A stretch of DNA of 23,511 bases from a virus. The stretch's first letter is position 1. Each line of letters starts with the position of its first letter. Under the pieces are notes generated by a model. The model did not search any database. It was not told the origin of the DNA and saw only the letters and a program-made list of their open reading frames with translations. Both the position numbers and the translations under genes were made by a program. Of this stretch, positions 1,644 to 16,695 are shown piece by piece. The DNA lies in the IMG/VR virus record IMGVR_UViG_3300036846_000055, positions 1 through 23,511 of that record; one strand, 5' to 3'.

Positions 1644-1658
1644 GTCTATCACCTCCAT

Positions 1659-2868: not shown

Positions 2869-2882
2869 TGGTGTTTCCTCCT

Positions 2883-2904: not shown

Positions 2905-2993
2905 ACATACTCCGCGAAGATCTCGCTCAGGTCTCGCTGGCGTAACGATCCGATAAAGATCTTGGACTGATCGACTGCTGGCCTGAATCACAG

Positions 2994-3263
2994 TTACAGA
3001 TCAATTTCGATCTTCCAATGGGTTGGTGGCTGGAGTGCAACAAGCACGTCATGCATGCCTTGGATGGCTCCAGCATCCTCAATGTGCCAGCCTGTCCAAT
3101 CGTTCCCTCCGGCCGTGGTCACATGATACAACTTGTGGCCAGACACAGAGTCTGCCGTGCGTTTGAGAATCTCAAGCATCATGCTCTCATGCTTGGTCTC
3201 CACATCACCGTGACAAACGATCATGCGTGGCTTTGGGAGCAGCGTTTCAGGTACTGGCAACAT
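2994..3263 (-). CDS. Hypothetical protein (89 aa)
   Basis: Starts at ATG 3261-3263 with GGAGG 7 bases upstream, which sits inside the 3' end of the sulfotransferase gene (17-base overlap). The sequence has a compact mixed composition with a GNDWTGWHIED segment near residue 53 and a hydrophobic C-terminus ending KIEIDL. No catalytic motif or membrane segment is evident and I do not recognise the family. It is the last gene before the non-coding gap holding control site A, so it may close one transcription unit. Confidence 0.7.
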   Translation of the reverse strand: MLPVPETLLPKPRMIVCHGDVETKHESMMLEILKRTADSVSGHKLYHVTTAGGNDWTGWHIEDAGAIQGMHDVLVALQPPTHWKIEIDL

Positions 3264-3888
3264 CGAGTGGCCTCCAGGTTGATGGATCGATCAAGTCATA
3301 GTCGAATGAACGGCAGTCGTCTTCACACCAGATGCGATTGGCAATCTCTACCTCACGCTGGTCATACAGCGATGCCCACGTTGGGTGCTTGCCGATGTTG
3401 CTATGATGATCGTATGTTGGGTACAGTCCATACAGGACACCGAAGTTCTGCCAGTTGTCCCACATGTGCTCCATCATCAGCGTGCGGTCTGGCTTCGCAA
3501 TCTCCGCACACTGCGTGAGCGACTTGGTCCACATGTGTGGAGCACGTCCTTGGATCCAGAGCCGGTGTTCCACCAACTCGCGTTGAGCTTCAAACCATGG
3601 TAGGAACTGACTGAAGTTCTGGTGCATGACGTAGCGATGGCCCCACTGAGACTTGCTGTTACCGATGTAGCCCAGGTACCACCACACTGAAACCAGTCTG
3701 CTGTAAGGGTTTCGCACCAGCATGTAACGTGTCTCTGGCGCAGACATCCAGACTGGTGGCGTCAACTTGTGCCGCGGCTTCACCCACTGCACCTCTGCTG
3801 GGTATTTCCGCATGGCTGCTTCCCAGCTGAAGGTGCCGGTCTTGGTTGGTGTGAAGATGATGAAGTCATGGATCTCACTTACCAACAT
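3247..3888 (-). CDS. Sulfotransferase-fold protein
   Basis: A 213-residue protein with both PAPS-binding hallmarks of sulfotransferases: the 5'-phosphosulfate loop PTKTGTFS at residues 14-21 after a hydrophobic strand (FIIFT), and the 3'-phosphate-binding motif RNPYSRLVS at 59-67. The C-terminal WCEDDCRSFDYD resembles the terminal acidic-aromatic segment of carbohydrate sulfotransferases. The family transfers sulfate from PAPS to a hydroxyl or amine, often on sugars; the substrate here cannot be told. There is no signal peptide, so it should act in the cytoplasm. ATG 3888 shares one base with the previous stop (TGATG); an ATG at 3924 would overlap the upstream gene by 37 bases. Uncommon cargo for a tailed phage. 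Confidence 0.8.
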   Translation of the reverse strand: MLVSEIHDFIIFTPTKTGTFSWEAAMRKYPAEVQWVKPRHKLTPPVWMSAPETRYMLVRNPYSRLVSVWWYLGYIGNSKSQWGHRYVMHQNFSQFLPWFEAQRELVEHRLWIQGRAPHMWTKSLTQCAEIAKPDRTLMMEHMWDNWQNFGVLYGLYPTYDHHSNIGKHPTWASLYDQREVEIANRIWCEDDCRSFDYDLIDPSTWRPLDVAST

Positions 3889-4085
3889 CAGTCCTCGTCC
3901 CCAGCAAAGATTGCATCCCAGCATGGGCTGCAGATGCCCGTCATCATCTGCTCACGCTTAGCAGCACTCAATTCTGGCAAGGCGCCCTGGATGTGCACGC
4001 CTTGGCGCCATTTCTTCAGGCCCTCATCATTGACCGCAAATGTGTCGGGCTTGCCACACTCTGGGCAATGCGTCTGAACTAACAC
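3888..4085 (-). CDS. Small zinc-ribbon-like protein (65 aa)
   Basis: Starts at GTG 4083-4085 with GGAGG 4 bases upstream; the start lies inside the stop region of the 57-residue gene before it (7-base overlap). Two Cys-x2-Cys pairs, CPEC near residue 7 and CSPC near residue 52, frame a helical middle (LKKWRQG ... LSAAKREQMMTGI). This is a one-zinc ribbon layout seen in small conserved phage proteins of unknown role. Its position between the helicase-side small genes and the sulfotransferase gives no firm function. Confidence 0.78.
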   Translation of the reverse strand: MLVQTHCPECGKPDTFAVNDEGLKKWRQGVHIQGALPELSAAKREQMMTGICSPCWDAIFAGDED

Positions 4086-4252
4086 TCATCCTCCAAATTG
4101 TCGATCTTGTATCCTGCGCGCCAGCATCGATACGTGATGTGGACGTGCCGCTGGTACGGTGAGATCCAGTAGGCATTCTCATCGTCCAGCGCACGCTTCA
4201 CACGATCATCACACCGTGATGCCTCGTCGGCTAATGTTTGATTTTTGTTCAT
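4079..4252 (-). CDS. Small hypothetical protein (57 aa)
   Basis: Read directly from the minus strand: ATG 4250-4252 overlaps the helicase stop as ATGA, the frame runs 57 codons and ends TAG at 4079-4081, overlapping the next gene. The protein starts MNKNQTLADEASRCDD and has an aromatic centre (ENAYWISPYQRHVHITYRCW) followed by a short acidic tail. It is soluble, with no recognisable motif. The tight coupling on both sides is the main argument that it is translated. Confidence 0.7.
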   Translation of the reverse strand: MNKNQTLADEASRCDDRVKRALDDENAYWISPYQRHVHITYRCWRAGYKIDNLEDEC

Positions 4253-6081
4253 GCCACCGCCATCGTGCGGGCTAGGTCAACGCCGCGCCTGCCGTCAAGC
4301 AGCATGTCCGTGATGCTTCGCTTCCCCTCAGTCACACGCTTGATGTACTCATCGATGGACTGATTGGTGATCAGCTGGTAGATCATCACCTGGTGAATTC
4401 TGGACACCCTGTGAATCCGGTCTTCCAGCTGGAGTTGATCGTCAGGGACCCATGTCTCATCGATAATGATCAACTCATCGCAGAACGCATCGAGCGTGAT
4501 CGACACACCGCCTGCCTTGGTGTTCATCAGCAGGACGCGCGGCCCACCAGCCGCCTGGAACGTGTCGGTGACGACAACACGCTCTGATTCCCTTACCTGG
4601 CCGGTGATTTTCATGTGCTCGACGTTGATGCTGTCGAGATAGTCACCCAGGCTGTTGATCACCTCAGTGAACTGGGACGCGATGACGATCTTGTCCTCAC
4701 CCTGTCGATCATCGCCTGCGATGCCTCGCTCAATCAGCATCTGCTCGATCACCGCAGCCTTGCACGAGTGCTCTGGCCACATGATCGCTGCCGGCTTGCT
4801 GCCTCGCATATTCCATGAGCAGTTTGCCATCTGCTTGAGCCGAGTCATGATCGCAAGCACACCGACTGCCGACAGCTCTTCATCACCCAGCTCAGCCATT
4901 GCCTGCTCAGACATCTGCTTGTACATCTTCTCCTGCACAGGCGTCATGTCACAGAACACCTCGATGTGCTGCTTGGGCGGCAGGTCAGCCACAACCTCGC
5001 CCTTGGTGCGTCGCAACATGATCTTGTCGAGTGACCTGTACAGATCATCCTCACGATCACGCCTGATGTCACCGAGAACAAACGCGCTGTACCTGTTGCT
5101 ACTGACGTGGAAGTACTGACGTGCCCAGCCGTAGAACGATGTGTACTCATGCGGCCGCAACCAGTGAAGTGTTCCCCACAAGTTGCTTGGCCTGCCACGC
5201 AACGGCGTCCCGCTGAGAGCGATTCTGACTCCACCATCACGCAGCTTCAGCTTCAGCATCGCTGCGCCTGTCTTGGTACGGTTCTGCGCTGACCGAATGC
5301 CGCCGAGATACTTGTGACTCTCGTCAACGATGATCGCGTTCCACTCAACTTCAAGCAACAGACCGAACTTCTTTTCAGCATCGCGGACCATCTCAGGGTT
5401 CACGATCAAGAAGTGCGGCCGCATGCCATCCGTTTCAGCATAGGTATCCAGCCACTTGTCAATGCGAGTCATCCGTGCCGATGCGCCATGAGCCCATGGC
5501 GGCACCGCCACCGTGACGACAGCGTCTGGTGCCCACTTGGCCAGCTCACGCTCCCACACCGTGCGGAGTGAGGTGAGTGGTGCGACGACCAGCACCGGGC
5601 CAACCCAACACCCAGCCTCCATCAAACCACCGATGGCTTCGAGTGTTTTACCCAGTCCGGGCTCATCAGCGATGAGCACCTCACGACCCTTGGCGATGAA
5701 CTTGGCACCGACACGCTGATACCTGCGTCGTCCCATTGCCTCAGCCAGCACTGGCGACTTCTGGTTCACCGCCTCCAGCTCAGCGTCATCGGCCTGGGTG
5801 AGTGCACGCATCTCATCCTCAAGCTGCTTTGCGTCTCTGGCCCAGTCATTCAGCTTGCGACCAATCACCAGTCGCTGACCGAATGAGCGCCGTAGCATCT
5901 TGCAACTGTCGAGTGAGAGTGCGTACTTCCACACCTTGTTCTTGGCATCCCACTTGCCGCCAGACCACCGATACCACGATGGATCTTGTGGGTTGTACTC
6001 TGACTTGGCCTGAATGACACCGTCGATCAACTCGATCCTGATCTTGGGCTTCTCAGGCTCATGCTCCTGTTCTGCTTCCAT
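4249..6081 (-). CDS. SNF2-family DEAD/DEAH helicase with HARP-like N-terminus
   Basis: A 610-residue superfamily 2 helicase/translocase. Motif I DEPGLGKT is at 139-146, motif II DESH at 253-256, motif III LSGTP at 289-293, the SNF2 landmark MLRRTK at 355-360, and motifs V-VI at about 519-561, ending QLEDRIHRVSR. The segment 29-75 (YNPQDPSWYRWSGGKWD... then KMLRRSFG) resembles the HARP-like DNA-annealing domain found before such helicases in SMARCAL1 and phage relatives. It probably remodels forks or anneals strands during phage replication. The start ATG 6081 has GGAGG 10 bases upstream. The frame is open further, to 6291, but that would overlap the preceding gene. It ends in an ATGA overlap with the next small gene. 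Confidence 0.9.
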   Translation of the reverse strand: MEAEQEHEPEKPKIRIELIDGVIQAKSEYNPQDPSWYRWSGGKWDAKNKVWKYALSLDSCKMLRRSFGQRLVIGRKLNDWARDAKQLEDEMRALTQADDAELEAVNQKSPVLAEAMGRRRYQRVGAKFIAKGREVLIADEPGLGKTLEAIGGLMEAGCWVGPVLVVAPLTSLRTVWERELAKWAPDAVVTVAVPPWAHGASARMTRIDKWLDTYAETDGMRPHFLIVNPEMVRDAEKKFGLLLEVEWNAIIVDESHKYLGGIRSAQNRTKTGAAMLKLKLRDGGVRIALSGTPLRGRPSNLWGTLHWLRPHEYTSFYGWARQYFHVSSNRYSAFVLGDIRRDREDDLYRSLDKIMLRRTKGEVVADLPPKQHIEVFCDMTPVQEKMYKQMSEQAMAELGDEELSAVGVLAIMTRLKQMANCSWNMRGSKPAAIMWPEHSCKAAVIEQMLIERGIAGDDRQGEDKIVIASQFTEVINSLGDYLDSINVEHMKITGQVRESERVVVTDTFQAAGGPRVLLMNTKAGGVSITLDAFCDELIIIDETWVPDDQLQLEDRIHRVSRIHQVMIYQLITNQSIDEYIKRVTEGKRSITDMLLDGRRGVDLARTMAVA

Positions 6082-6128
6082 GTTTTTGACACCTCCATTC
6101 TCTGTCACCCTCACGGACGTGAGGTGAA

Positions 6129-6157
6129 TGGCCAGGACACTCAGCCCTTCCTGGCCA
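6129..6157 (-). terminator. Stem-loop after the 110-aa gene (possible terminator or attenuator)
   Basis: A perfect 9-bp inverted repeat, TGGCCAGGA and TCCTGGCCA with an 11-base loop, begins 7 bases after the stop of the gene ending at 6164 and precedes the helicase start by about 48 bases. No T-run follows on the minus strand, so full termination is uncertain; it may tune expression of the helicase. Confidence 0.4.
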
Positions 6158-6163
6158 ATCATC

Positions 6164-6496
6164 TCAATCCGTTGGTGCCTGAACCCGCACGTCGCTGCCG
6201 ACTGCCTCGACCTTGATGATCGAGTCATCACCCAGCGATGTCGTGCCGGCCTCTGGCCGCAGCGAGAATTGCAGCTCAGTGAGCTGCTCATTCACGCCGA
6301 TGTACGTGGCGACCATCGTGCGTGGTTTCCTTTGCACACCGGCGATCTGAAACGTGACGCGATACCGCGTGCCGACACGCATGTGATCGGCAAGCAGCTG
6401 AATCCCTGACCGACCCTTTCTCACATAGTTGGAACACGACATCTCAGCGCAGTGAGTCGTTGAGCCGTACAGCCGATGCCCGCAGATGGCAGTCAT
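6164..6496 (-). CDS. Hypothetical protein with N-terminal Cys/His cluster (110 aa)
   Basis: Starts at ATG 6494-6496, sharing one base with the previous stop; a GTG three bases upstream is also possible. The N-terminus carries Cys6, His8, Cys17 and Cys22 (CGHRL ... HCAEMSC), which could bind one metal ion. The rest looks like a small beta-rich domain (TRYRVTFQIAGV, TMVATYIGV, TELQFSL, IIKVEAV). The family is not recognised. It sits in the run of small cysteine-bearing genes between the DUF6011-like gene and the helicase. Confidence 0.72.
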   Translation of the reverse strand: MTAICGHRLYGSTTHCAEMSCSNYVRKGRSGIQLLADHMRVGTRYRVTFQIAGVQRKPRTMVATYIGVNEQLTELQFSLRPEAGTTSLGDDSIIKVEAVGSDVRVQAPTD

Positions 6497-6717
6497 CACG
6501 TCATCACCAGTTTCTTGCCACTCTTGGTGATGCGCTCATTGGCTGCCTCGACCAGCTGGTACACCGTCTTGCCAGTCATCTTGGTGTACGCTTTGCCAAG
6601 ACCTTCCAGCACGCCTCTGCGATACTCAGTGTTGAGATCGAAGCCACCCCAGAGGATCATGACTCCCAGCATCTCAACGAACTCGTGCTCAATCTGAGCA
6701 CAGACGTTGCCCTTCAC
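6496..6717 (-). CDS. Hypothetical protein (73 aa)
   Basis: Starts at GTG 6715-6717, which overlaps the previous TGA as GTGA and has GGAGG 4 bases upstream. The protein is helical with a hydrophobic patch (FVEMLGVMILWGGFD) too short and too mixed to be a clear membrane segment, then LGKAYTKMTGKTVYQLVEAANERI. No known motif. The next gene overlaps its stop. A starting point further upstream lacks a suitable ribosome binding site. Confidence 0.7.
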   Translation of the reverse strand: MKGNVCAQIEHEFVEMLGVMILWGGFDLNTEYRRGVLEGLGKAYTKMTGKTVYQLVEAANERITKSGKKLVMT

Positions 6718-6851
6718 TTGTCCTCCATCTTGGCAAGCACCTGGCACCACAACTCGATGGCCGTGGTCAAGCGCCCCATCTCAGCGATGAGTGCCTGACC
6801 TTGCTCGATCACCTGCGCCGCATGCTCCTGAAGTTCAGCGAGCCTATCCAT
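6714..6851 (-). CDS. Small helical protein (45 aa)
   Basis: Read directly from the minus strand: ATG 6849-6851, 45 codons, TGA at 6714-6716. GGGAG lies 6 bases upstream and the stop overlaps the next gene as GTGA. The protein (MDRLAELQEHAAQVIEQG...) has a heptad-like pattern over most of its length and could form a short coiled coil or dimer. Function unknown. Its tight coupling with the next gene supports translation. Confidence 0.6.
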   Translation of the reverse strand: MDRLAELQEHAAQVIEQGQALIAEMGRLTTAIELWCQVLAKMEDK

Positions 6852-6943
6852 TCCTTGCTCCCATTTCCCAGCCATCACCGTGATAGCCGTGAACGGCCAC
6901 AGGCATGAAGCTCCTGTGGCCGATCACGATCACACGCTGACGT
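6852..6943 (-). other. Short gap with possible 20-aa peptide
   Basis: No full-size gene fits between the 56-aa and 45-aa genes. A 20-codon frame (ATG 6904-6906 to TAG 6844-6846; peptide MPVAVHGYHGDGWEMGARNG) has AGGAG 4 bases before its ATG and overlaps the start of the next gene. It may be a coupling leader or a tiny gene. A small hairpin (GCCACAGG and CCTGTGGC around 6894-6921) surrounds the ribosome binding site. Confidence 0.3.
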
Positions 6944-7114
6944 TCATGATCTCCATTGAACCGTCTGCATCTTGATCGACACAATCTTGCGCTGCGAACA
7001 GGCAGGACTGCTGAATAGATGCGTGTAGTGCTTGTGACTCTTTGCCGCGTGGTGGACCCTGGCGCCACATTCAGCGCACAGAGTCCGCACGACAGCCGGC
7101 AGCCGCTCAGCCAT
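6944..7114 (-). CDS. Small Cys/His zinc-finger-like protein (56 aa)
   Basis: Starts at ATG 7112-7114, two bases after the stop of the preceding gene; the longer frame to 7201 would run back into that gene. Cys-x2-Cys (CAEC, residues 13-16) is followed by HH (20-21), further histidines and a single cysteine (SPAC), enough for one zinc site. The C-terminus is basic. This small-finger type is typical of phage early operons, but I cannot name a family or function. Confidence 0.65.
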   Translation of the reverse strand: MAERLPAVVRTLCAECGARVHHAAKSHKHYTHLFSSPACSQRKIVSIKMQTVQWRS

Positions 7115-7116
7115 GG

Positions 7117-7368
7117 CTACCAGCTGCCGTACCGGATCGCACCGCTGTTGTACAGCGCTGTGACCCTTGCCTTGATCGTTGGCTGATACTTGGTCTCCCA
7201 AGTCTGCTGATCGATGTCGAAGACATACTCAGCACAGCCAAAGAATGGCGTGATGTCGAAGCGCCTGGGCTCAATGCCCAGACCCTCAATGACACCCTTG
7301 ATCAGATCACCCGGACGCGGACTGCCAGGTGGGCAGTCCAGCTCGATTGTCTGGAACTCGCCCTTCAT
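7117..7368 (-). CDS. Hypothetical protein (83 aa)
   Basis: ATG 7366-7368 overlaps the previous TGA as ATGA. The protein has an N-terminal FQTIELDCPPGSPRPGDLI segment, then a mixed alpha/beta region (DITPFFGCAEYVFDI, TIKARVTALYNSGAI). No catalytic motif is clear. It belongs to the coupled block of small proteins and may work with the 127-residue gene just upstream. Confidence 0.75.
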   Translation of the reverse strand: MKGEFQTIELDCPPGSPRPGDLIKGVIEGLGIEPRRFDITPFFGCAEYVFDIDQQTWETKYQPTIKARVTALYNSGAIRYGSW

Positions 7369-7748
7369 CGCACACCTGCCTCAATCCGCCGTGACACAAG
7401 GGATTGCGGCAGGGTGATGACGTTGCCGGCTCGCCACTTCTGCGAGTAGGTGTGCCGCAAGCGAACCTTGAACTTGCCGTCAGGCAAGACCTCAGTCAGC
7501 TCAGCGATTTCACCCGCAAGCATCCGTGGGCGGCACTGCTGTGAGATCATGATGAAATCACCGACGTGCAGATCTGACAGCATTCGCAGCTTCAAGATCG
7601 CCTGCCGACCCTTGACCTCACGCGCGATGGAGTCGATGTGAGCATCGAAGCCACCTGACTTGATGACGTCAACGATCTGCTCAGCAAGCATCTCGTTGCG
7701 AGTGGTCTCATCGATCACGTTGGAAGACACAGGACTCAGCTCAGTCAT
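7365..7748 (-). CDS. Hypothetical protein with small beta-barrel-like C-terminus (127 aa)
   Basis: Starts at ATG 7746-7748, 5 bases after the stop of the DUF6011-like gene; the AGGGTGG at that gene's 3' end serves as ribosome binding site. The first half is helical (TTRNEMLAEQIVDVIK). The second half has a LHVGDFIMIS ... AGEIAELTEVLPDGKFKVRL pattern typical of an SH3-like small beta barrel. Function unknown. The frame extends to 7832 but that would overlap the previous gene by 79 bases. Confidence 0.72.
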   Translation of the reverse strand: MTELSPVSSNVIDETTRNEMLAEQIVDVIKSGGFDAHIDSIAREVKGRQAILKLRMLSDLHVGDFIMISQQCRPRMLAGEIAELTEVLPDGKFKVRLRHTYSQKWRAGNVITLPQSLVSRRIEAGVR

Positions 7749-7753
7749 GTCGA

Positions 7754-8329
7754 TCACCACCCTGACTTCTGGAGGCAGATCGGACCAATGCCCAGTGCGA
7801 TGCTCTGCGGGTCGGTCAGCGGGCTGCCACAAACTCCGCAGCTGCCGACCTGCTTGCCGAACATCACGCTGTACATCATGGGATCTTCGCTCAGCGTCTT
7901 TGCCACGTTGACCTGGTCTTGCTTGGTCATCGTGTCGCGCCTGAAGTCTCCAGGCGCACCGAACAGCCGCAGGATGTACTGGACCTTGCGCTGATCACGC
8001 GTGGTCTTGACCTGGTAGAAGTGATACACGATCTGGCCATGCGCGTTCTTGCGAATCGGTATGGCATACCGACCATCTGGCACACCCAGTTCGATCTTCT
8101 TGAACGGCTGGGTCTTCATGACCGTGATGATGTCGCTCGCCTCACGCCTGCTCATGCGGGCTGTGATGTCTGCGATTACCTGGTCTGCCTTGGCCTTGCT
8201 CATGGATGAAAGATCCTTGAGCAACAGCTCCACGACTGGCGTCACCGCCATGTCTTCCGGCATCTCACGCCCAAACAGCAGTGACTTCAGGAAGTCAAGC
8301 TGCTTGAGAGTGATTGTTGGTTCCTCCAT
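7754..8329 (-). CDS. DUF6011-like zinc finger protein (191 aa)
   Basis: The C-terminus carries CGVCGSPLTDP followed by SIALGIGPIC, the Cys-x2-Cys ... GIGP-x-Cys pattern of the DUF6011 finger found in many actinobacterial and actinophage proteins. The first 60 residues are helical (TLKQLDFLKSLLF, ADQVIADITARM), and the middle (DGRYAIPIRK ... YHFYQVKTTRD) resembles a beta-rich module. ATG 8327-8329 has GAGGGG about 9 bases upstream. The family is often encoded beside phage replication genes; its activity is not established. It is the first sizeable gene after two tandem hairpins and may head a sub-operon. Confidence 0.78.
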   Translation of the reverse strand: MEEPTITLKQLDFLKSLLFGREMPEDMAVTPVVELLLKDLSSMSKAKADQVIADITARMSRREASDIITVMKTQPFKKIELGVPDGRYAIPIRKNAHGQIVYHFYQVKTTRDQRKVQYILRLFGAPGDFRRDTMTKQDQVNVAKTLSEDPMMYSVMFGKQVGSCGVCGSPLTDPQSIALGIGPICLQKSGW

Positions 8330-8358
8330 GTTACTTGCCCCTCTCTGGGACTCATCAG

Positions 8359-8404
8359 GAGCAGCACCTTACTGCTCAATGCGGGCGCTCAGCCTGCCCG
8401 CATT
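8359..8404 (-). terminator. Tandem stem-loops between zinc-ribbon gene and DUF6011-like gene
   Basis: In the direction of transcription, a 9-bp perfect stem (AATGCGGGC and GCCCGCATT, 8378-8404, 9-base loop) is directly followed by a 6-bp stem (GAGCAG and CTGCTC, 8359-8377, 7-base loop). They start 10 bases after the stop at 8414. No T-run follows, so this could be an actinobacterial-type terminator, an attenuator, or an RNA-processing site. Confidence 0.5.
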
Positions 8405-8413
8405 TCGTCCTGG

Positions 8414-8581
8414 TCAGAGATTGTTGCGTGTCTCGCTTGGCTCACGTGTCAGCAACCAGCTGAAGCAACGATCGCAGTAGCACTGCTCGCTGCCCGTGAC
8501 CTGGTCCCGCACGCTGTGTAGCGTGGCGCGTTTCACGCCACACTCGAAGCATCGGCCGCTGTAGTCATCGCAAGCGCACAC
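8414..8581 (-). CDS. Small zinc-ribbon protein (55 aa)
   Basis: Read directly from the minus strand: GTG 8579-8581 shares one base with the TAG of the preceding gene, the frame runs 55 codons and ends TGA at 8414-8416. Cysteines are numerous and paired: CAC at the N-terminus, CFEC at residues 11-14, and CYCDRC at about 35-40, giving enough ligands for one or two zinc ions. The C-terminus is hydrophilic (LTREPSETRNNL). The cysteine pattern makes chance coding unlikely. Function unknown; small fingers of this type may bind nucleic acid or host proteins. Confidence 0.72.
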   Translation of the reverse strand: MCACDDYSGRCFECGVKRATLHSVRDQVTGSEQCYCDRCFSWLLTREPSETRNNL

Positions 8582-8748
8582 TACAGCCAGCCCATCTTCA
8601 TGGCCGGGTTCTCACACCCATCCCAGCTGGCTTCACCGTCAACTTCGATGTACTCACCGTGAGGGCACAGGAAGCCACCACAGTCATCGTAGTCATCGGC
8701 CCACAGGTAACCCTCAGGTAGCTCTGGTCGATCAAGCTTCTCCATCAT
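8581..8748 (-). CDS. Small Cys-containing hypothetical protein (55 aa)
   Basis: ATG 8746-8748 overlaps the previous stop as ATGA and has GGAGAG 6 bases upstream. The protein is acidic (LPEGYLWADDYDDCGG) with three cysteines (DDCGGFLCPHGEY ... DGCENP) plus a histidine that could hold a metal ion, and ends AMKMGWL. It resembles small conserved actinophage proteins of unknown role. The next small zinc-ribbon gene overlaps its stop by one base. Confidence 0.72.
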   Translation of the reverse strand: MMEKLDRPELPEGYLWADDYDDCGGFLCPHGEYIEVDGEASWDGCENPAMKMGWL

Positions 8749-9068
8749 CGCACACTCTCCGAGAGTGTCGCGTGGGTTCCCCACCGGACGATGACGACTG
8801 GCGCCAACGCACCGATGGTGAGCCGCTTGCCGTCCTGGTTGATGAACCCAACCCTGGCGGCACTCTTGGCGATGAATCGCTCTGCGATGTAGTCAGTGGC
8901 CACCTCACCGGTGTCACCGATCTTGCAGAGCAGCACGTCGCCAGGACGCAAGTCCTGCGGACGAGCACCCCACACCTGCCAGAATCCCATCGTGCCAGGT
9001 TCCTTGGCGGGCATGGTCTCGACGGCAGCGACGGCCGCATGGCCAGTCGGCTGTTCCGTGTCGATCAT
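8745..9068 (-). CDS. Hypothetical protein (107 aa)
   Basis: Starts at ATG 9066-9068 with GGAGAG 6 bases upstream; an ATG at 9098 is possible but has no such site. The N-terminus is Ala-rich and flexible (TGHAAVAAVETMPAKEPG), followed by a small beta-rich domain with LRPGDVLLCKIG and a Val-rich strand (APVVIVRW). No family recognised. It is the first gene after a 230-base non-coding stretch with control site B, so it likely heads the left operon. Confidence 0.7.
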   Translation of the reverse strand: MIDTEQPTGHAAVAAVETMPAKEPGTMGFWQVWGARPQDLRPGDVLLCKIGDTGEVATDYIAERFIAKSAARVGFINQDGKRLTIGALAPVVIVRWGTHATLSESVR

Positions 9069-9246
9069 CTCATTCTCTCCATTCTCTATCGGAAACATCG
9101 GGAAGTGGCCCCCGACCCTTGTCTGTCTTGTCTATAGGCAAGGCAGACAGGGCACTCGGTGCCGAATCACAACGGGAGAATTCACAGCTGAAAATCACAG
9201 ATAGAGGGTGACCTATCACACATAAGACATCAGACACACAAGTGAA
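9069..9246. promoter_or_regulatory. Intergenic region likely holding the left-operon promoter
   Basis: No gene fits here. The stretch lies between a strong terminator hairpin (9247-9282) and the start of the left operon, and includes the 22-bp element at 9128-9149. A TATAGA hexamer inside that element could act as a minus-strand -10, but no good -35 stands 17 bases upstream, so I do not assign a sigma-70 promoter. Confidence 0.4.
9128..9149. promoter_or_regulatory. 22-bp control site, copy B (partner at 2883-2904)
   Basis: Reads TTGTCTATAGG, C, AAGGCAGACA on the plus strand, the reverse complement of copy A with a single mismatch. Flanking bases extend the symmetry (CTGTCT before, AGACAG at the end). 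It lies 60-81 bases before the start of the 107-residue gene. Its repetition 6.2 kb away upstream of another gene points to a specific protein-binding site. Confidence 0.5.
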
Positions 9247-9282
9247 AATGAAAGGTGCGGATTTGCACCCGCACCTTTCATT
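9247..9282 (-). terminator. Strong terminator hairpin after the coiled-coil gene
   Basis: A perfect 14-bp stem, AATGAAAGGTGCGG and CCGCACCTTTCATT, with an 8-base loop that reads GTGCAAAT on the minus strand. It starts 17 bases after the stop at 9300 and is followed on the minus strand by TTCACTT, a weak T-rich tail. Position and strength fit a transcription terminator for the gene ending at 9300. Confidence 0.75.
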
Positions 9283-9299
9283 CGCACCGGGATCAGCCG

Positions 9300-9785
9300 T
9301 TAGAACTCGGCATCGTCATCCGTGACGTCATCACTTTCGTCATCGGAATCGGCATTTGCCTCAGCCAGCATTGCCTCCAGCTTGGCAATTCGCTCAGCCG
9401 CACGCTTTTCGGCAGCAATGGCAGCTTCGAGTGCCTTTGCCTTTTCTTCTGGCGTCTTGGTGGCAAGTGCCTCGATTGAACGCTGTGATTTGCGCTCTTC
9501 ACTTTCGGCCGCCACCTGGTCGCGAATCTCTGTGTATTCCTCTGACTTGCGGTAAAGGGGACCGTAAGTGCCCTGAACAACGCGCAGAGTGTCAACGTCG
9601 ATGTCGAAACCGTGCTGATCCTTGATCCACTGGACAAAGCCAGTCTGCTTTGCAGAAGGCTTGCGATCCAGCAATTGCTGAATCTTGTCCTTGGGAGTGA
9701 CTGGTGCTTTCTCAGTCACTTCCGCTGTGGTTTCCGCCGCATTCTCAGCGACGGGAGCCTCAGCTGTCTTTGTGGATTCGGTCAT
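9300..9785 (-). CDS. Acidic coiled-coil protein (161 aa), function unknown
   Basis: Starts at ATG 9783-9785 with GGAGG 7 bases upstream. Layout: an Ala/Glu/Thr-rich flexible N-terminus (about 1-35), a compact segment (KIQQLLDRKPSAKQTGFVQW to LYRKSEEY, about 36-85) that may be a small DNA- or protein-binding domain, a long Ala/Glu/Lys coiled coil (about 90-145), and a strongly acidic tail ending DDVTDDDAEF. Own terminator, long hairpin-filled leader and strong ribosome binding site suggest a separately controlled, perhaps abundant product. It could be nucleoid-associated or scaffold-like; I cannot decide. Confidence 0.75.
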   Translation of the reverse strand: MTESTKTAEAPVAENAAETTAEVTEKAPVTPKDKIQQLLDRKPSAKQTGFVQWIKDQHGFDIDVDTLRVVQGTYGPLYRKSEEYTEIRDQVAAESEERKSQRSIEALATKTPEEKAKALEAAIAAEKRAAERIAKLEAMLAEANADSDDESDDVTDDDAEF

Positions 9786-9807
9786 GATTCTTGCCTCCAT
9801 TCGGCGT

Positions 9808-9832
9808 GTCATTCGTGGCCCTCACGAATGAC
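9808..9832 (-). repeat. Intergenic stem-loop 1 (10 bp)
   Basis: Perfect inverted repeat GTCATTCGTG and CACGAATGAC around a 5-base loop. It is the last of four consecutive stem-loops before the ribosome binding site of the coiled-coil gene, ending about 10 bases from the GGAGG, so it could control translation or end transcription from upstream. Confidence 0.6.
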
Positions 9833-9836
9833 GTTT

Positions 9837-9899
9837 TGGGCATTTGCCCAGGTGGTTTGTCCATAACCACCAATGCCGCGCTGGGATTTGCACCCCAGC
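9837..9899 (-). repeat. Intergenic stem-loops 2-4
   Basis: Three more perfect inverted repeats in a row: TGGGCA/TGCCCA (9837-9850), GGTGGTT/AACCACC with a 7-base loop (9851-9871) and GCTGGG/CCCAGC (9880-9899). The last has the loop GTGCAAAT on the minus strand, identical to the loop of the terminator at 9247-9282. They fill most of the 128-base gap between two genes. Confidence 0.6.
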
Positions 9900-9913
9900 A
9901 CGACGATTGGCAA

Positions 9914-10228
9914 TTAGGCCATTTCGACCATGCCATTCTCGGCTGCCGAATTGGCAGCTTCGAGAATGGCGGCCGCGACCTTGTCACCACGACGCGCGCC
10001 CACGACCAATTTGCGGTCGAATTGCACGGGAATGGTGAGACCGGCTGCCTTATAGCAGCGACGGCACGCGAATTTGTCCATTCCCACAACTGTGGAGAAT
10101 GAAACGCGCGCAGGCTCCCAGGTCGCATTTCCGGCAATCTCAGAGTTATTCCAACCCTGAGCCAATCCTGCGCAATCCGCGGAAAGGTGGAAGTTACGAC
10201 CCTTTTCAGGAACGATAACGTTGGTCAT
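9914..10228 (-). CDS. Small Cys/His metal-site protein (104 aa)
   Basis: Starts at ATG 10226-10228 with GAGGAG 6 bases upstream. The protein has an H-x4-C (HLSADC, residues 14-19) and later a CRRC pair (about 57-60, FACRRCYKAAG), a pattern found in small phage proteins that bind zinc through one His and three Cys. The C-terminal third is basic then Ala-rich (KVAAAILEAANSAAENG). The last 15 codons contain a 16-bp bulged stem-loop (9932-9970). Function unknown; a nucleic-acid role is plausible but not shown. Confidence 0.72.
   Translation of the reverse strand: MTNVIVPEKGRNFHLSADCAGLAQGWNNSEIAGNATWEPARVSFSTVVGMDKFACRRCYKAAGLTIPVQFDRKLVVGARRGDKVAAAILEAANSAAENGMVEMA
9932..9970 (-). repeat. Long stem-loop in the 3' coding end of the 104-aa gene
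   Basis: GCCATTCTCG and CGAGAATGGC pair over 10 bp, and inside them GCTGCC and GGCAGC pair over 6 bp around GAATT, with a 2-base bulge. It lies within codons near the stop at 9914 and together with the following four stem-loops forms a dense structured stretch. Confidence 0.55.
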
Positions 10229-10254
10229 TTGTGACTCCTCAAATCTCATCAGGA

Positions 10255-10269
10255 CAGATACCATATCTG
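10255..10269 (-). repeat. Short palindrome upstream of the 104-aa gene
   Basis: CAGATA and TATCTG with a 3-base spacer, 27 bases before the ATG at 10228. This small symmetrical site is in the right place for an operator or for a promoter -10 region (minus strand TATGGT), but no -35 is convincing. Confidence 0.35.
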
Positions 10270-10282
10270 CCGATGACGGGCG

Positions 10283-10531
10283 CTAATGAATTAGGCATTT
10301 CACCGTATTGCGCACCCGCCATTTCGATTTCAAATGGGAGGAATCAAAACCGTCTCTCTCTGTTGAATTATCAAGGAGCGTAACCGCAAATTCAATTTGC
10401 TTTCGCATGCGCAATTGGCGGAAATGCTGGACCGTACTTCGCTTTTGGCAATTCCTACTAAGTGCTCGGAGGTTTCTCATTTCATTGAGTACCAATACCC
10501 GCTGATTTTCGGAATTGATTGAAATGCCCAT
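10283..10531 (-). CDS. Doubtful hypothetical ORF (82 aa)
   Basis: An ATG at 10529-10531 with GGAAAA about 6 bases upstream opens 82 codons to a TAG. The product is basic and polar (NLRALSRNCQKRSTVQHFRQLRMRKQ) with no recognisable motif. Codons are clearly AT-richer than in the rest of the window. It could be a real small gene of a separately acquired block or just an open stretch in a non-coding region; the next gene starts 54 bases downstream with its own strong ribosome binding site. Confidence 0.35.
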   Translation of the reverse strand: MGISINSENQRVLVLNEMRNLRALSRNCQKRSTVQHFRQLRMRKQIEFAVTLLDNSTERDGFDSSHLKSKWRVRNTVKCLIH

Positions 10532-10596
10532 TCGCTTTTCCGAGGTGACATTTCCGCCGCTTACGCTATTGAATTGGGCCGTGCTTTCGAGCTATT

Positions 10597-10622
10597 GTTT
10601 TACTGCCTTACGTCAGTAAAAC
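10597..10622. promoter_or_regulatory. 9-bp inverted repeat, probable operator
   Basis: GTTTTACTG and CAGTAAAAC form a perfect inverted repeat with an 8-base spacer (CCTTACGT). The A/T pairs sit at the base of the stem with no T-run after it, so this fits a dimeric protein-binding site better than an intrinsic terminator. Confidence 0.4.
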
Positions 10623-10652
10623 GTGTCGATCTTCCCGTTCGTTCCCGAATCT

Positions 10653-10670
10653 GGTAACGATTAGGTAACG
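10653..10670. repeat. GGTAACG direct repeats 11 bp apart
   Basis: GGTAACG occurs at 10653-10659 and 10664-10670. The 11-bp period places both copies on the same face of the DNA helix, as in iterons and tandem operator sites. Confidence 0.4.
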
Positions 10671-10727
10671 GTTCGATATCGTCTGTATGTTCGATTCAGG
10701 GCCTGTGCCAGCCTTGTGTTCGATTCT

Positions 10728-10927
10728 GTGATGTCGATCATGAGCCAGTACTTGCCTGTTTGCCTATCGGTGCAGTAGGAAATGTCGGGGTTCGATGTTC
10801 GATCAAGTCCGTCACATCGGCTCACGATGTCGATCATGGGCGCTCGGGGGTTGATCGACACGGCTCACGATGTCGATCACACAAGTCGATCATCCCTGCC
10901 TGTGATGTCGATCATGTGTGTCGATCA
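10728..10927. repeat. Cluster of ATGTCGATCA repeats (operator- or iteron-like)
   Basis: The core ATGTCGATCA is at 10731-10740, 10827-10836, 10870-10879 and 10905-10914. Near copies are at 10884-10892 (AGTCGATCA) and 10919-10927 (TGTCGATCA), and one reversed copy at 10851-10860 (TTGATCGACA). Two copies extend to a perfect 19-bp direct repeat CGGCTCACGATGTCGATCA (10818-10836 and 10861-10879, period 43), and two to a perfect 17-bp repeat CTGTGATGTCGATCATG (10726-10742 and 10900-10916). Spacing is irregular. This is the strongest repeat signal in the window; function is not shown by sequence alone. Confidence 0.7.
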
Positions 10928-11000
10928 AGGGGACCGTCCAGCCGGAGCGTCAGGCCAATGCCGATCATCACCCTCTGGCATCGCTGTCAGCGAAATGGGG

Positions 11001-11030
11001 CGTCCGGGTAGCGGCCTACCTACCCGGACG
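11001..11030 (-). terminator. Probable late-operon terminator
   Basis: Perfect 10-bp inverted repeat CGTCCGGGTA and TACCCGGACG around a 10-base loop that can itself pair partly (GTAG/CTAC). It lies 75-104 bases past the last late gene. There is no clear T-tract on the minus strand (CCCCATTTCG follows), which is common for GC-rich actinobacterial terminators. The structure is symmetrical and might also stop plus-strand transcripts. Confidence 0.6.
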
Positions 11031-11104
11031 TAAACGATCTTGTTAGAATCGATGCTAGCTGTTCGATCTTGAACGCTTGTCACACCAGTCCCTGTCACAG
11101 ACGA

Positions 11105-11623
11105 TCACGCCACGCAGGTGTGAATCGTGAACGTCTCACTCTTGATCTTCAGCGTCAGGTTGCGCAGATGAAAGCCGGCAGGGCACGTCATTGATTGACC
11201 TGGTGAGCCTCTCTCACCACGAGCACCACGCTGCCCAGTCTTGCCTCTTGGTCCCATGGGGCCCTGCAGCCCAGCTGGTCCACGATCACCAGCTTGTCCT
11301 GACGCTCCAGCCCGTCCTGCTCTGCCAGCTGGTCCAGTGGTGCCATTCTTGCCTTGCTGTCCAGACTTGCCGTGCGGGCCTGAGGCACCGGCAGAACCTG
11401 GCGCACCATGGCTGCCACTTGGGCCAGCAGCACCAACCGGACCTTGTGAGCCAATGGGACCACGCGAACCTGGTGGCCCCTGTGGTCCTGGTGGCCCTGG
11501 ACCACTAGCGTTGGATGCACCAGCGATGAGCAAGATGATCGTGATGACAATGAAGGCGCCAGACAAGATGAACGCGATCGTTGGTGATCGAAAGACACGT
11601 CGCACCAGCTCAGTCGGCCCCAT
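11105..11623 (-). CDS. Membrane-anchored collagen-like protein (172 aa)
   Basis: The N-terminus is basic (LVRRVFRS) and is followed by one strong membrane segment at about residues 14-36 (TIAFILSGAFIVITIILLIA). Residues 41-142 are an almost unbroken Gly-X-Y collagen-like stretch, and the last 29 residues form a small domain with two cysteines (Cys147, Cys170) that may pair. Expected topology: short N-terminus inside, collagen stalk and cap outside. It overlaps the holin-like gene by 14 bases and is the last late gene. I chose ATG 11623 (GGGA 6 bases upstream); ATG 11635 is also possible. Role unknown: lysis control, envelope disruption or surface modification are all open. Confidence 0.75.
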   Translation of the reverse strand: MGPTELVRRVFRSPTIAFILSGAFIVITIILLIAGASNASGPGPPGPQGPPGSRGPIGSQGPVGAAGPSGSHGAPGSAGASGPHGKSGQQGKNGTTGPAGRAGRAGASGQAGDRGPAGLQGPMGPRGKTGQRGARGERGSPGQSMTCPAGFHLRNLTLKIKSETFTIHTCVA

Positions 11624-11843
11624 TGTCGATCCCATGCTGTGCTAGCTTGAGTCGCAGTGCATACACCTGACGCTCGCAAGCGATGCGAGCTTCACGCTCT
11701 TGGGACAGCATGATCGACAGTGAGTTCACCTCACCAGTCGATGCCTTACGCTCCTTGTCCCGCACGGATCTGATGGCGAGCATGATTCCACCGGCAGCCG
11801 TGATGATTGCGGCCAGTGCCGTGAAGATGGCCGCAAGTTCCAC
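11610..11843 (-). CDS. Holin-like small membrane protein (77 aa)
   Basis: Starts at GTG 11841-11843 with GGAGG 8 bases upstream. One hydrophobic segment (about residues 2-25, ELAAIFTALAAIITAAGGIM) is followed by a charged, coiled-coil-like tail (RDKERKASTGEV ... QEREARIACERQVYAL). Size, topology and position 27 bases after the endolysin gene fit a small one-segment holin or a holin-associated membrane protein. Sequence alone cannot prove pore formation. The frame can be extended to GTG 11858 but that start precedes the ribosome binding site. Confidence 0.68.
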   Translation of the reverse strand: MELAAIFTALAAIITAAGGIMLAIRSVRDKERKASTGEVNSLSIMLSQEREARIACERQVYALRLKLAQHGIDNGAD

Positions 11844-11870
11844 ATCTGTCCCCTCCACATCTGCTCAGTT

Positions 11871-12827
11871 TCAGTTTGGCCAATGGATGACAGACCACAC
11901 CGCGTTGACGATGTCCACAGCTACCGGGGATTGCACCCGCACCGCCAGGCCACGGTCAGGGTTGGAGTAACCAACGCGGGTGTCCACGACCTCCAGGTTG
12001 CCGCCGCTGCCTTGACACTCCAGCCAGCCGGAGCCGCCCACTGTGTCGCCGCTCTTGATGTCCACAAAGGCAAGTCCAGCGAGGAAAGTCTGGCCCTCAG
12101 GCAACCCCTTCACCACGCACGAGAACGTGGACACATAACTGGCTCCATCTGCGCCACCCGTGTTGATGTAGCGCCCAGCCTCATCGCCCTCAGGCTTGCC
12201 TGTGCCAAAGAACACGTTGCCGGTGTCCCAGTCCTGCTGGTCCCACTTGATTTCCCACGGCGTGTTGGCCTGGTTGACACGCAACGGGTCGATGCGCTTG
12301 GCCTGGAACCGTTTGGGCATGTCGCCGTCCTCCTGTCCGTCGGTGCTTCCACCGCTGCTGCTCTTGCCTGTGATGACGTCAGCCACTTTCTGCAACGCGT
12401 CATTGTTCTCTGAGTACTGCCGCAAGATCGACAAGTGAATGTGCCAGAGGTGACTGTCGTCGCTGGTCACCGCATAGTTGCCCCAGTAGTCCCAGCCACA
12501 GACCGTGCGGCCATCAGTAGAGCCGTAGAACTCACGCACCACATCCATGCGCGAATCGTTCTTGGCGTTGAGCAAGCGCTTGCTGGCCGTGTAGTGATCC
12601 TCTGCCTTGTTCCAGCTGATGTCCAGCCCGCATGCGGCCTCACCGTTGCCTTTCTTATCCGGTGGTGTCTGCACGCTGTAGTCGTTGCCACCAACGTAGT
12701 TGCGGCCGCGATGGTAGCCATAGGTGTGGGCTTGATCGCCAATGATGCCGCCCATCAACGCTGATGGCATACGATCATTGACCGTGTTGAACAGGTTGGT
12801 GATGGCTTGTGGCGCAAACTCAACCAT
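11871..12827 (-). CDS. Endolysin with M15-type peptidase domain and C-terminal binding domain
   Basis: A 318-residue lysin. The N-terminal domain (about 1-150) has a metal-peptidase pattern of the M15 kind: HTYGYH at 34-39, an Asp in CGLDIS (Asp69) and the terminal WHIH at 128-131, expected to cut peptidoglycan cross-links. A Ser/Gly-rich linker (about 155-168) leads to a 149-residue C-terminal domain, probably for wall binding. An in-frame ATG at 12320 with AGGAGG 8 bases upstream sits exactly at the domain border. ATG 12827 is chosen because the 50-codon gene before it ends there; the frame extends to 12950 but that part overlaps the small gene and looks non-coding. Holin-like gene follows. 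Confidence 0.75.
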   Translation of the reverse strand: MVEFAPQAITNLFNTVNDRMPSALMGGIIGDQAHTYGYHRGRNYVGGNDYSVQTPPDKKGNGEAACGLDISWNKAEDHYTASKRLLNAKNDSRMDVVREFYGSTDGRTVCGWDYWGNYAVTSDDSHLWHIHLSILRQYSENNDALQKVADVITGKSSSGGSTDGQEDGDMPKRFQAKRIDPLRVNQANTPWEIKWDQQDWDTGNVFFGTGKPEGDEAGRYINTGGADGASYVSTFSCVVKGLPEGQTFLAGLAFVDIKSGDTVGGSGWLECQGSGGNLEVVDTRVGYSNPDRGLAVRVQSPVAVDIVNAVWSVIHWPN

Positions 12828-12972
12828 CGCGATGCCGCCCCCAACGTCGTTTCTTGTGTTCGTCATCTTCAGGCTTGTGCTCTTCAAGCCACCAGTCTGG
12901 TGGCTGAAGTCGTTCACGATCACCAGTGTCACGCGTCTCGCGTGGCTCAAGCCCCGGCTCTTGCTCTGTCAT
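12820..12972 (-). CDS. Small charged protein with WW motif (50 aa)
   Basis: Read directly from the minus strand: ATG 12970-12972 has AAGGGA about 7 bases upstream and lies 10 bases after the stop of the previous gene. The frame runs 50 codons and ends TGA at 12820-12822, overlapping the endolysin start. The product is very hydrophilic, alternating acidic and basic (MTEQEPGLEPRETRD, then PPDWWLEEHKPEDDEHKKRR). No family recognised. Short proteins of this type occur near phage tail/lysis borders. It competes with the longer endolysin frame for the same bases; I prefer this reading because of the ribosome binding site. Confidence 0.6.
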   Translation of the reverse strand: MTEQEPGLEPRETRDTGDRERLQPPDWWLEEHKPEDDEHKKRRWGRHRDG

Positions 12973-14652: not shown

Positions 14653-15359
14653 CAGAACCTCGCTGTGTAGACGGCGCGATGATCGGTGGCCCTGGTGAAG
14701 ATGCGCTGATAGCTGCTCAATGATCGTTCTGGCACAGCAAACGCGGCATCGATCCGTGGAAGTCCAGATGAGCGACGTAGCCTGGTGTGGTTGACAATGC
14801 CAGGATGCTTCTGGTTCCAGTCACCAGCGATGACGATATGTGCCAATGGATGCGCGTTGATGTAGGCTTCCTCGATAGCCACATCAGCTGCTCGCCAGCG
14901 TCCCTGGTGCGGGTGCTTAGCCGTGCTGGCAGTGTTGTGAACAGCGATCAGCCTGACGTATCGATGGGTGACTCGATCGATGAGTCTGACGATGGGGATG
15001 CGCCAGCGATGTCCGTTGAAGTACGGCACCACGAGCGAGGAATGAGCAGCAAGGTGATATGCGGATCTTCGCCAGAACACGACGTTGGGTCCATTGTGGG
15101 CCAAGCTGAATGCTCCACCGGTGTCGGCCAGGAATGCTCGCCGTTGACTGCGTTCGCACTCAACCAGCGTACCCAGGTCAGCGTGCTGTCGCTCGATGAT
15201 GTGGGCAATGCTCGCCATCCTGATGATTGCGCTGGCTGTCCCGGTGTGACTGGCACCCTGCACGTTGGCCCAGAACAGAGTGCGGGTGATCGGTGCATCC
15301 GCGTTGGCCGGTGGGACAAGTAACATCCACGTCAACGTGAGTGCCCAGCAGCGTCGCAT
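14652..15359 (-). CDS. Secreted DNase I-fold (endonuclease/exonuclease/phosphatase family) protein
   Basis: Residues 1-20 form a classical signal peptide: RR, a hydrophobic core (WALTLTWMLLV) and an ANA cleavage site. The rest has the full set of EEP catalytic motifs: Asn32 (WANVQG), Glu68 (TLVECE), His141 (IAVHN), Asp180-x-Asn182 (AGDWN), Asp204 (PRIDAAF) and Asp226-His227 (TDHRAV). EEP enzymes cut DNA, RNA or phosphate esters with Mg2+. ATG 15359 follows the previous stop by one base; the TTG at 15368 would add three residues before the signal peptide. A secreted nuclease inside a tail-fibre operon is unusual; it may act outside the cell or in the envelope. Confidence 0.82.
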   Translation of the reverse strand: MRRCWALTLTWMLLVPPANADAPITRTLFWANVQGASHTGTASAIIRMASIAHIIERQHADLGTLVECERSQRRAFLADTGGAFSLAHNGPNVVFWRRSAYHLAAHSSLVVPYFNGHRWRIPIVRLIDRVTHRYVRLIAVHNTASTAKHPHQGRWRAADVAIEEAYINAHPLAHIVIAGDWNQKHPGIVNHTRLRRSSGLPRIDAAFAVPERSLSSYQRIFTRATDHRAVYTARF

Positions 15360-15360
15360 G

Positions 15361-16695
15361 TCAGCCAACGATCACAACTCTGTAGCCTGCGCCCAGGTTG
15401 GGGTTGTATCTGATCGTGGCCGTGGTAGCTGATGTCGCATCCCAGTCCACCTCCACTGCTGTGTAAGGTGATGCGCCGTTCAACACCGTGAGCTGGATGT
15501 CTCGTGTGTTCAAGTTATGGGTGACGACTTCAGGTGACGCCGTGCCGGCCAACGCTGCTGCGAACTTCTTGGGCATGCCAGCAATGGCACTGTTGACGAA
15601 CGCTTGCGTGGCGATCACAGCAGTGTTGACAGCGATGGAGTCAGCAGCGACCGTGAGTGTGGTGTCAGCAGCGACAGCATCGATGGTATTGCCGGTCTTG
15701 GTCAGGCCGGCACCAGCGATGACTTGCCCTGCGCCGCTGAATTGAACCCATGTGATGGCCGTGGTATCAAGCGTTCCACCTTGATCGCTTGTGCAGACCC
15801 AGCCCGTGTCAGCGTTGACGGTGCCCTGCTCAACAAAGGTGAACGCTGAAGGCACAAGCGTCCATTGGTTCATATCGCCAGAACGTTGCCATGTGCCGTT
15901 TGCACCACTGCCCAGCGTGCCGACCGTGTAAATGCCGTTTTGAGCTGGCGCTGTTTGATCCTTTACAAGCACCCGGTCGTTGACTGCGAGCGCAACACCA
16001 TCTAGCGTGTTTGGCGTGCCACCAGCTAGCGTGATGTTGGCACCGACAGTTGCGGCGTGGACAGACTGCTTGGCGTCCAGGCCTTGTGCAACACTGTCAG
16101 CATAGCCCTTGGTTGCAGCATCGTTCGACAACGTTGGCGTCATGAGTCCCGTGATCTTGTGGGTGTTCATGGCGACATCAGTTGTCGTTGGATGTGCGCT
16201 CGCAAGTGCACCAAGATCGAATGCTGTGGCTGTGTCAGCAACAACGACAGTGCCGTCGAGAATCTTGGCTGAAGTCACTGTGCCATTTGCGATGACTGGG
16301 TTCGGATATGTGCTGCCTGCTAGATCGCCACCCGCAGCACCGTTTGGTGGCAAGGCAGTTGGGATCACACCAGCAGCGATGTCAACAGCCTGAACGGTGC
16401 CATCCGCGATCTTCGCACTGGTGACAGCGTTGGGCGCAATGACTGGCGCCGTTGCCGTGCCAGCAAGATCACCGGCTAGCTGAATGGTACCAAGAGCGCT
16501 TGCTGTCGCAGGTGGTGTTGAGCCGCTCATCGCGCTCTGCCACGTGGTGCCGTCATACCACTTGAGGATGTTGTTGGTGGAGTCAAACCACAGCAAACCC
16601 TTTGTGGGACTCGATGGCGCGGCACCCAAGTTCTGAACTACAGCGTTGCGCAGCTCATTCTTGCCAAGATCGACTGCACCATAGAACACTGGCAT
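15361..16695 (-). CDS. Tail fibre protein (444 aa)
   Basis: ATG 16693-16695 has AAGGGA 5 bases upstream. The N-terminus begins with MPVFYGAVDLGKNELRNA and then a LLWFDSTNNILKWYDGTTW module. The middle has repeated short beta units around NG-T-V-T-S-A-K-I (two copies, VTSAKIADGTV and VTSAKILDGTV), typical of fibre shafts. The C-terminal segment EVVTHNLNTRDIQLTVL to VVIVG matches the terminal modules of the collagen-like fibre upstream. This points to a long trimeric fibre that carries the same end domain as its neighbour. Receptor specificity is unknown. Confidence 0.82.
   Translation of the reverse strand: MPVFYGAVDLGKNELRNAVVQNLGAAPSSPTKGLLWFDSTNNILKWYDGTTWQSAMSGSTPPATASALGTIQLAGDLAGTATAPVIAPNAVTSAKIADGTVQAVDIAAGVIPTALPPNGAAGGDLAGSTYPNPVIANGTVTSAKILDGTVVVADTATAFDLGALASAHPTTTDVAMNTHKITGLMTPTLSNDAATKGYADSVAQGLDAKQSVHAATVGANITLAGGTPNTLDGVALAVNDRVLVKDQTAPAQNGIYTVGTLGSGANGTWQRSGDMNQWTLVPSAFTFVEQGTVNADTGWVCTSDQGGTLDTTAITWVQFSGAGQVIAGAGLTKTGNTIDAVAADTTLTVAADSIAVNTAVIATQAFVNSAIAGMPKKFAAALAGTASPEVVTHNLNTRDIQLTVLNGASPYTAVEVDWDATSATTATIRYNPNLGAGYRVVIVG

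Follow-up and report, generated by a model that had tools for sequence, protein, structure and literature searches.

Repeated asymmetric words in the longest gene-free interval of an actinophage-like genome fragment, possibly an operator-type array

The DNA analyzed, hereafter the window, is an entire IMG/VR virus record, 23,511 bp long. The record is most likely a genome fragment, because the proteins scanned at its right end included no recognisable head or terminase products. All convincing genes read leftward and, from right to left, tail and structural genes are followed by a lysis-type cassette, a gene-free interval and the early genes. The cassette (11105-12950, minus strand) lies upstream of the repeat array described below, and includes a collagen-like gene, one small membrane-type gene whose product is plausibly holin-like, and a putative lysin, suggested by position and conservation and devoid of Pfam or PHROG matches. 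The early genes downstream of the array (602-10225, minus strand) include those for a DUF6011 protein, a SNF2-type helicase, a PD-(D/E)XK exonuclease and a Sak4-like annealing protein. Megablast comparison of the record with 50,697 phage records gave no matches. Distant protein matches point to phages of Streptomyces, Arthrobacter and Gordonia, and to other phages, and the record is therefore called actinophage-like. Searches of the phage collection with two early proteins (9303-9812 and 9917-10264) gave no matches, and single-sequence structure predictions for 9303-9785 (pLDDT 67, pTM 0.27) and 9917-10225 (pLDDT 37) were too poor for a structure search. Two additional genes deserve mention. 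The product of 14655-15368 (minus strand), inside the tail operon, belongs to the endonuclease/exonuclease/phosphatase family (Pfam E 6e-8, over the cut-off), has a signal-like start, and is kept in both close relatives of the virus (L130 and L131). The product of 3250-3894 (minus strand) is possibly sulfotransferase-like, the match to Pfam Sulfotransfer_2 being below the cut-off (E 0.03) and extending over 18 residues only; it has no match beyond chance among solved structures.

The interval hosting the array spans 840 bp (10265-11104) and is the longest gene-free stretch of the record. An earlier note on this DNA had reported that no gene overlaps the repeats, and the ORFs over the array indeed score as non-coding. 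An 82-aa ORF at 10283-10531 lacks frame contrast and scores -0.195 per codon; twelve other minus-strand entries range from -0.077, the score of a second ORF inside the interval, to +0.19 per codon. Since the ORFs over the array and at 10283-10531 score as non-coding, the whole of 10265-11104 is taken as gene-free. Searched as DNA, the interval found no phage matches, and one chance-like plasmid match covering 5% of the query. No Rfam family was found at gathering scores in the window, or in a contig of a distant relative (L134), and weak matches in the interval fall far below the cut-off. A perfect 11-bp GC-rich hairpin without a T run (11001-11030, minus strand) follows the lysis/collagen-like cassette, and a second hairpin, formed by GTTTTACTG and CAGTAAAAC (10597-10622, minus strand), marks the left edge of the array.

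The repeats described in the earlier note were found as claimed. The 10-bp core ATGTCGATCA occurs exactly at 10731, 10827, 10870 and 10905, always on the plus strand, and with one mismatch at 10852 (inverted), 10883 and 10918; a further one-mismatch copy, at 10958, lies just outside the region (10728-10927) first singled out. A perfect 19-bp direct repeat, CGGCTCACGATGTCGATCA, is found at 10818 and 10861, with a period of 43 bp, and a perfect 17-bp repeat, CTGTGATGTCGATCATG, at 10726 and 10900. The repeats share a 9-bp word, TGTCGATCA, present in six exact copies. Five are on the plus strand: 10732-10740 and 10906-10914, inside the 17-bp repeats (10726-10742 and 10900-10916), 10828-10836 and 10871-10879, inside the 19-bp repeats (10818-10836 and 10861-10879), and 10919-10927. 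The sole inverted copy is at 10852-10860. Degenerate copies, all on the plus strand, are GTTCGATCA (10797-10805), AGTCGATCA (10884-10892) and TGCCGATCA (10959-10967), the last beyond the region first described. A looser related word, GTTCGAT, is found five times on the plus strand within 10671-10803 (at 10671, 10689, 10718, 10790 and 10797) and a sixth time at 11061, out of 10 occurrences in the whole record, both strands considered. Once the weaker copies are counted, the array reaches from about 10622 to 10967. Alignment of ten copies shows that information is high over the nine positions of TGTCGATCA, and drops at once outside; the consensus is RTGTCGATCA. The words, 9-10 bp in length, are asymmetric and without dyad conservation. 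From one copy to the next, counting the degenerate ones, distances are 65, 31, 24, 19, 13, 22, 13 and 40 bp, and fit no tandem repeat.

Such clustering is not expected by chance. In 5000 first-order Markov sequences modelled on 10532-11104, exact copies of TGTCGATCA averaged 0.02 and never exceeded 2, against the six observed. Sites with at most one mismatch to the 10-mer are 19 in the record versus 2.4 expected, and none of 100 shuffles reached 19. The record was also scanned for dense 9-mers in 240-bp windows moved by 20 bp. Three to six copies of one 9-mer were found in 13 windows, all corresponding to the array (starts 10621-10861), and no 9-mer reached three copies per 240-bp window elsewhere in the record. 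A coding origin of the array was ruled out, as most spacings break the reading frame and the ORFs score as non-coding. An RNA element was likewise discarded as an explanation of the array itself: folding of either strand is unremarkable (z -0.6 to -1.5), and the signal is therefore in the DNA. Since the copies are asymmetric, irregularly spaced, in mixed orientation and out of frame, they are best regarded as DNA sites for a protein, and the array is probably a cluster of sites for one sequence-specific DNA-binding protein.

Exact copies of TGTCGATCA are not restricted to the array. Seven others, four on the plus and three on the minus strand, were found at 572, 4497, 4703, 6973, 7748, 9059 and 11711. 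The earlier note had set an equal density of the motif across the genome against its own reading; no such evenness is seen in the record. The seven outside copies are all located at or before 11719. Early coding sequences host four copies, versus 1.2 in synonymous shuffles (none of 1000 reached four), and late coding sequences one, versus 0.27. Most outside copies reside inside genes, and three of the seven (572, 7748 and 9059) are at gene starts. The distribution thus departs from that of start-associated repeats of the cluster K type, 6 of the 13 exact copies being packed in one gene-free array. Little weight is given to the dispersed copies, because CGATCA, a part of the word, outnumbers every other 6-mer of the record outside the array, where TCGATCA also ranks among the commonest 7-mers. 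The same bias could favor the view that no binding array exists, and that drift left a local duplication or a composition effect in gene-free DNA remaining from a lost lysogeny cassette; the 43-bp period indeed reflects a duplication of part of the array. This is improbable. The words have stayed exact in the midst of differing flanks, an inverted copy is present, and the count of six exact copies versus 0.02 expected is far above a composition effect.

Short repeats in both orientations would also suit a partition (parS-type) or packaging (pac-type) site, at which the repeats would be recognised by a centromere-binding protein or by a small terminase, respectively. Nine GATC tetramers are found in 10728-10967, and the other strand of TCGATCA holds the hexamer TGATCG, which we take to resemble the P1 pac hexamers. 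GATC content alone means little, because of the abundance of CGATCA outside the array. In about one fifth of cluster A phages the integration cassette is described as being replaced by parABS (PMC7157519), but no ParA-like ATPase, and no adjacent parA and parB genes, were found among the neighbouring early proteins scanned. Similarly, a terminase gene was not seen nearby, the neighbours being lysis and early genes. Either type of site is therefore regarded as unlikely. Even less probable is the recruitment of the host DnaA. In a direct comparison TGATCGACA agrees at 7 of 9 positions with TTATCCACA, the DnaA box consensus, but all six copies depart from it at the same two positions, and 10265-11104 contains no box that comes within one mismatch of TTATCCACA or TTGTCCACA.

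The left half of the interval belongs to the GC minimum of the record, whether taken over 400 bp or 500 bp; the 500-bp stretch (10191-10690, minus strand) has 45% GC. Read leftward, 10226-10630 folds with z scores of -3.56 and -3.9 in two runs, versus -1.45 for the opposite strand, and only one of 26 same-strand, same-length controls scored lower (z -6.4). The data are suggestive of a leftward RNA leader encoded by 10226-10630, and the low-GC region may correspond to an RNA leader or to an unwinding region. Strong folding is found elsewhere in the record as well. The strongest folding control, 7180-7585 (minus strand, z -6.4), lies within predicted genes. Two very strong hairpins, 9245-9290 and 9870-9910 (minus strand, z -6.7 and -8.6), flank the gene 9300-9785 and have the loop region GGGTGCAAATCC in common; the former continues into a short, T-rich tail and could act as a terminator. 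At 9117-9152, upstream of an early gene, TATA is surrounded by an imperfect 16-bp inverted repeat (CCTTGTCTGTCTTGTC...), one arm of which recurs at 2880-2895, near the start of another early gene.

Relatives of the virus are informative on the lysis/early junction to a different extent. The two close relatives, both from one metagenome, encode late-gene proteins 58-90% identical (L130) or proteins 32-86% identical (L131) to those of the record. No TGTCGATCA copy was found in their available DNA, and both contigs end before the junction can be judged: L131 stops inside the gene after the lysin, L130 about 100 bp past its last gene, in a long hairpin. The end of L130 carries ATACCATTTGGTAT twice and was considered as a second operator array, but is not counted as evidence, because its folding is that of a single long hairpin. 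The same early gene order is found in two records that are more distant, 60-62 kb in size (G001 and G002), and no integrase was seen in either. Their junctions, 208 and 785 bp long, respectively, lack TGTCGATCA, and no comparable repeats are found in that of G002. Two mosaic relatives (L145 and L146) have the lysin in common with the record; in L146, lysin pieces are 70-78% and the holin-like protein 45% identical, and a collagen-like gene follows. Neither hosts TGTCGATCA in the DNA available. Both carry an integrase near the lysin cassette and, in L146, the cassette is followed by the integrase and by a gene for an HTH repressor-like protein, oriented opposite to the early genes. The lysis/early junction hence serves lysogeny control in some relatives. 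According to the earlier note, loss of the repeats in close relatives keeping the flanking genes would speak against a function. The array is missing in all four relatives reaching past the lysis genes, but none of the four is close, and this absence does not refute a function because the nearest relatives keeping the flanking genes stop short. Additional relatives were sought through the tail protein in the genome contig collection, and none was found. The junction of G002 has peculiarities of its own. The gene-free stretch of about 785 bp preceding its first early gene (L134, 8740-9525) has a folding z of -4.05, and none of 20 shuffles scored as low; it is a candidate large structured phage RNA, positioned like the interval of the record. 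Moreover, TTGGGGCCCAAAG is found between early genes of the same virus (L129, positions 692, 1801 and 3689), twice exact and once with one mismatch.

The array word was also searched in wider collections. A two-copy pattern was found in at least 119 stretches of the viral contig collection. The densest among the loci fetched were L119, a regular 11-bp tandem of four copies, and L028, L063 and L045, with three copies each. L045 is a regular 15-bp tandem, and the copies of L028 overlap predicted genes; none of the four loci resembles the array. A stricter pattern selected 20 stretches, 15 of which, already ranked, have at most two copies per 300 bp; L138-L142 were left out of the ranking. In the genome contig collection a three-copy pattern, which demands one direction, identified 76 loci, most with the constant spacing of tandem or codon repeats. 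Irregular loci with 3-4 copies (L154, L174, L193, L219, L222 and others) mostly lie inside long open frames and are all one-directional, as the pattern dictates. No counterpart of the word or of the array emerged from the contig loci examined, the DNA searches, or the titles listed (15 of 148 papers) in a text search for the 9-mer, which were off-topic.

Two readings of the array as a multi-site protein-binding region deserve most attention. Both are weakened by the failure to find a partner gene in the fragment, a promoter near the array or a turn of the GC skew, and by the lack of comparable repeats in G002. Tentatively, and on evidence that is close between the two, we favor the notion that the array is operator-type and controls leftward early transcription, rather than being a replication origin. 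The array lies upstream of the leftward early operon, and control of early transcription is its most likely job. A phage regulator, either an immunity-type repressor or an autoregulator, would bind the asymmetric 9-10-bp words, block or roadblock RNA polymerase where the early promoter is located, and release the polymerase for early expression. As genes on both sides read leftward, an early promoter must be sought either at the array or to its left, read-through from the late genes being the alternative; plausibly, it lies between the array and 10225. No convincing promoter was recognised. One sigma-70-like match was found in 10280-11150, versus 0.9 expected, on the minus strand well left of the array (10395-10367), and a looser promoter scan of the minus strand of 10226-11104 gave none. 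The earlier note had remarked that neither a repressor nor a replication initiator is encoded in the window. This holds true, as models for HTH_31, phage integrase, resolvase, DnaB and PolA gave no hits in the record, the search for repressors relying on the one HTH model. The regulator would be encoded outside the 23.5-kb fragment. The case for an immunity repressor is weakened by the lack of integrase in G001 and G002, which suggests that the lineage may be lytic. In turn, the operator reading is supported by the need of early genes for a nearby promoter, by the presence of lysogeny control after the same cassette in a relative, and by the similar layout known in mycobacteriophages D29 and L5, for which published parallels are available (PMC5712189, PMC6550527, PMC9283540).

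The early-promoter locus of D29 and L5 is described as comprising, in about 1.4 kb, an operator, seven putative stoperators and an abundant non-coding transcript (PMC5712189). The array resembles the operators and stoperators of these cluster A phages, as described, in the asymmetry of the short repeated sites and in their clustering within a locus that is mostly devoid of genes and has the early lytic promoter and a non-coding transcript, both putative here (PMC5712189, PMC6550527). Differences are just as evident. In the same descriptions cluster A sites are 13-14 bp long, have another consensus, number 20-30 genome-wide, are mostly oriented in one direction with transcription, and have a known repressor. 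The array word measures 9-10 bp, a single array gathers nearly half of its exact copies, and orientation is mixed both in the array (5 plus, 1 minus) and outside (4 plus, 3 minus). By eye, RTGTCGATCA does not correspond to the 13-bp L5-type consensus GGTGGc/aTGTCAAG (PMC5712189), though other cluster A consensuses are reported to vary. As to the spread of sites, the seven exact copies outside the array, within 23.5 kb, are mostly inside genes. The proposal of the earlier note, that the repeats resemble operators, stoperators or an origin, hence survives in part. All measurements agree with a protein-binding region of multiple sites at the divide between late and early genes. The fragment does not show the strict stoperator picture, in which sites have one orientation relative to transcription, are spread through short intergenic gaps and are accompanied by a repressor gene.

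A replication origin, in which the words would be initiator-binding boxes (iterons) and the adjoining low-GC DNA an unwinding region, possibly with the involvement of RNA, is a real if less probable option. The boxes are short, asymmetric and irregularly spaced, the array borders on the 400-500 bp with the lowest GC content in the record, and the longest gene-free interval adjoins early genes of the recombination/replication type. The SPP1 origins are described as direct repeats next to an AT-rich region, oriR being intergenic (PMC6316719), and the array similarly combines repeats with an adjoining low-GC, putatively unwinding, stretch. In contrast to the array, oriR and oriL of SPP1 have a known origin-binding protein, and the low-GC stretch is milder here, with only 45% GC. 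The least stable 60-bp and 100-bp stretches of the record are moreover found elsewhere, near 9164-9193. DnaB and PolA were not found in the record, and G002, which has the same early gene order, lacks comparable repeats in the junction. The GC skew, suggested in the earlier note as a check for an origin, makes no turn at the array; the test is weak, as all genes are on one strand. Integrase-less cluster A phages of the RedRock type can reportedly use a non-coding RNA origin located by parABS, at the genome centre (PMC7157519). The likeness concerns the association of repeats with a structured, possibly transcribed, gene-free stretch, and its location at the divide where relatives have an integrase. 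The difference is that parA and parB were not seen in the fragment, and that transcription of the stretch is putative here. A composite scheme, in our opinion a speculative and unlikely one, is that the interval is a compound replicon which replaced the integration cassette, kept at this place by the mosaic relatives. The box array and the leftward structured RNA would start replication, perhaps maintain an extrachromosomal prophage, and also set early transcription.

Intergenic repeat families without known function have already been published for actinophages, among which the 17-bp palindromes of cluster O and the repeats of Microbacterium phages of clusters EC, EG and EI (PMC4351075, PMC7302621). 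These resemble the array in being phage-specific words in gene-free DNA, but are described as 17-30 bp long and scattered over many short gaps, whereas the array is short and packed in one interval. If the array is made of operators, as we tentatively favor, it shows where the switch region of this uncultured, actinophage-like lineage is located, and the word could be used to find the corresponding repressor and immunity group in metagenomes. To our knowledge, the origin is not known for most actinophages; if the array instead acts as one, a small replicon suitable for cloning would be gained. Either reading fits the relatives compared, in which control cassettes differ at the lysis/early junction.
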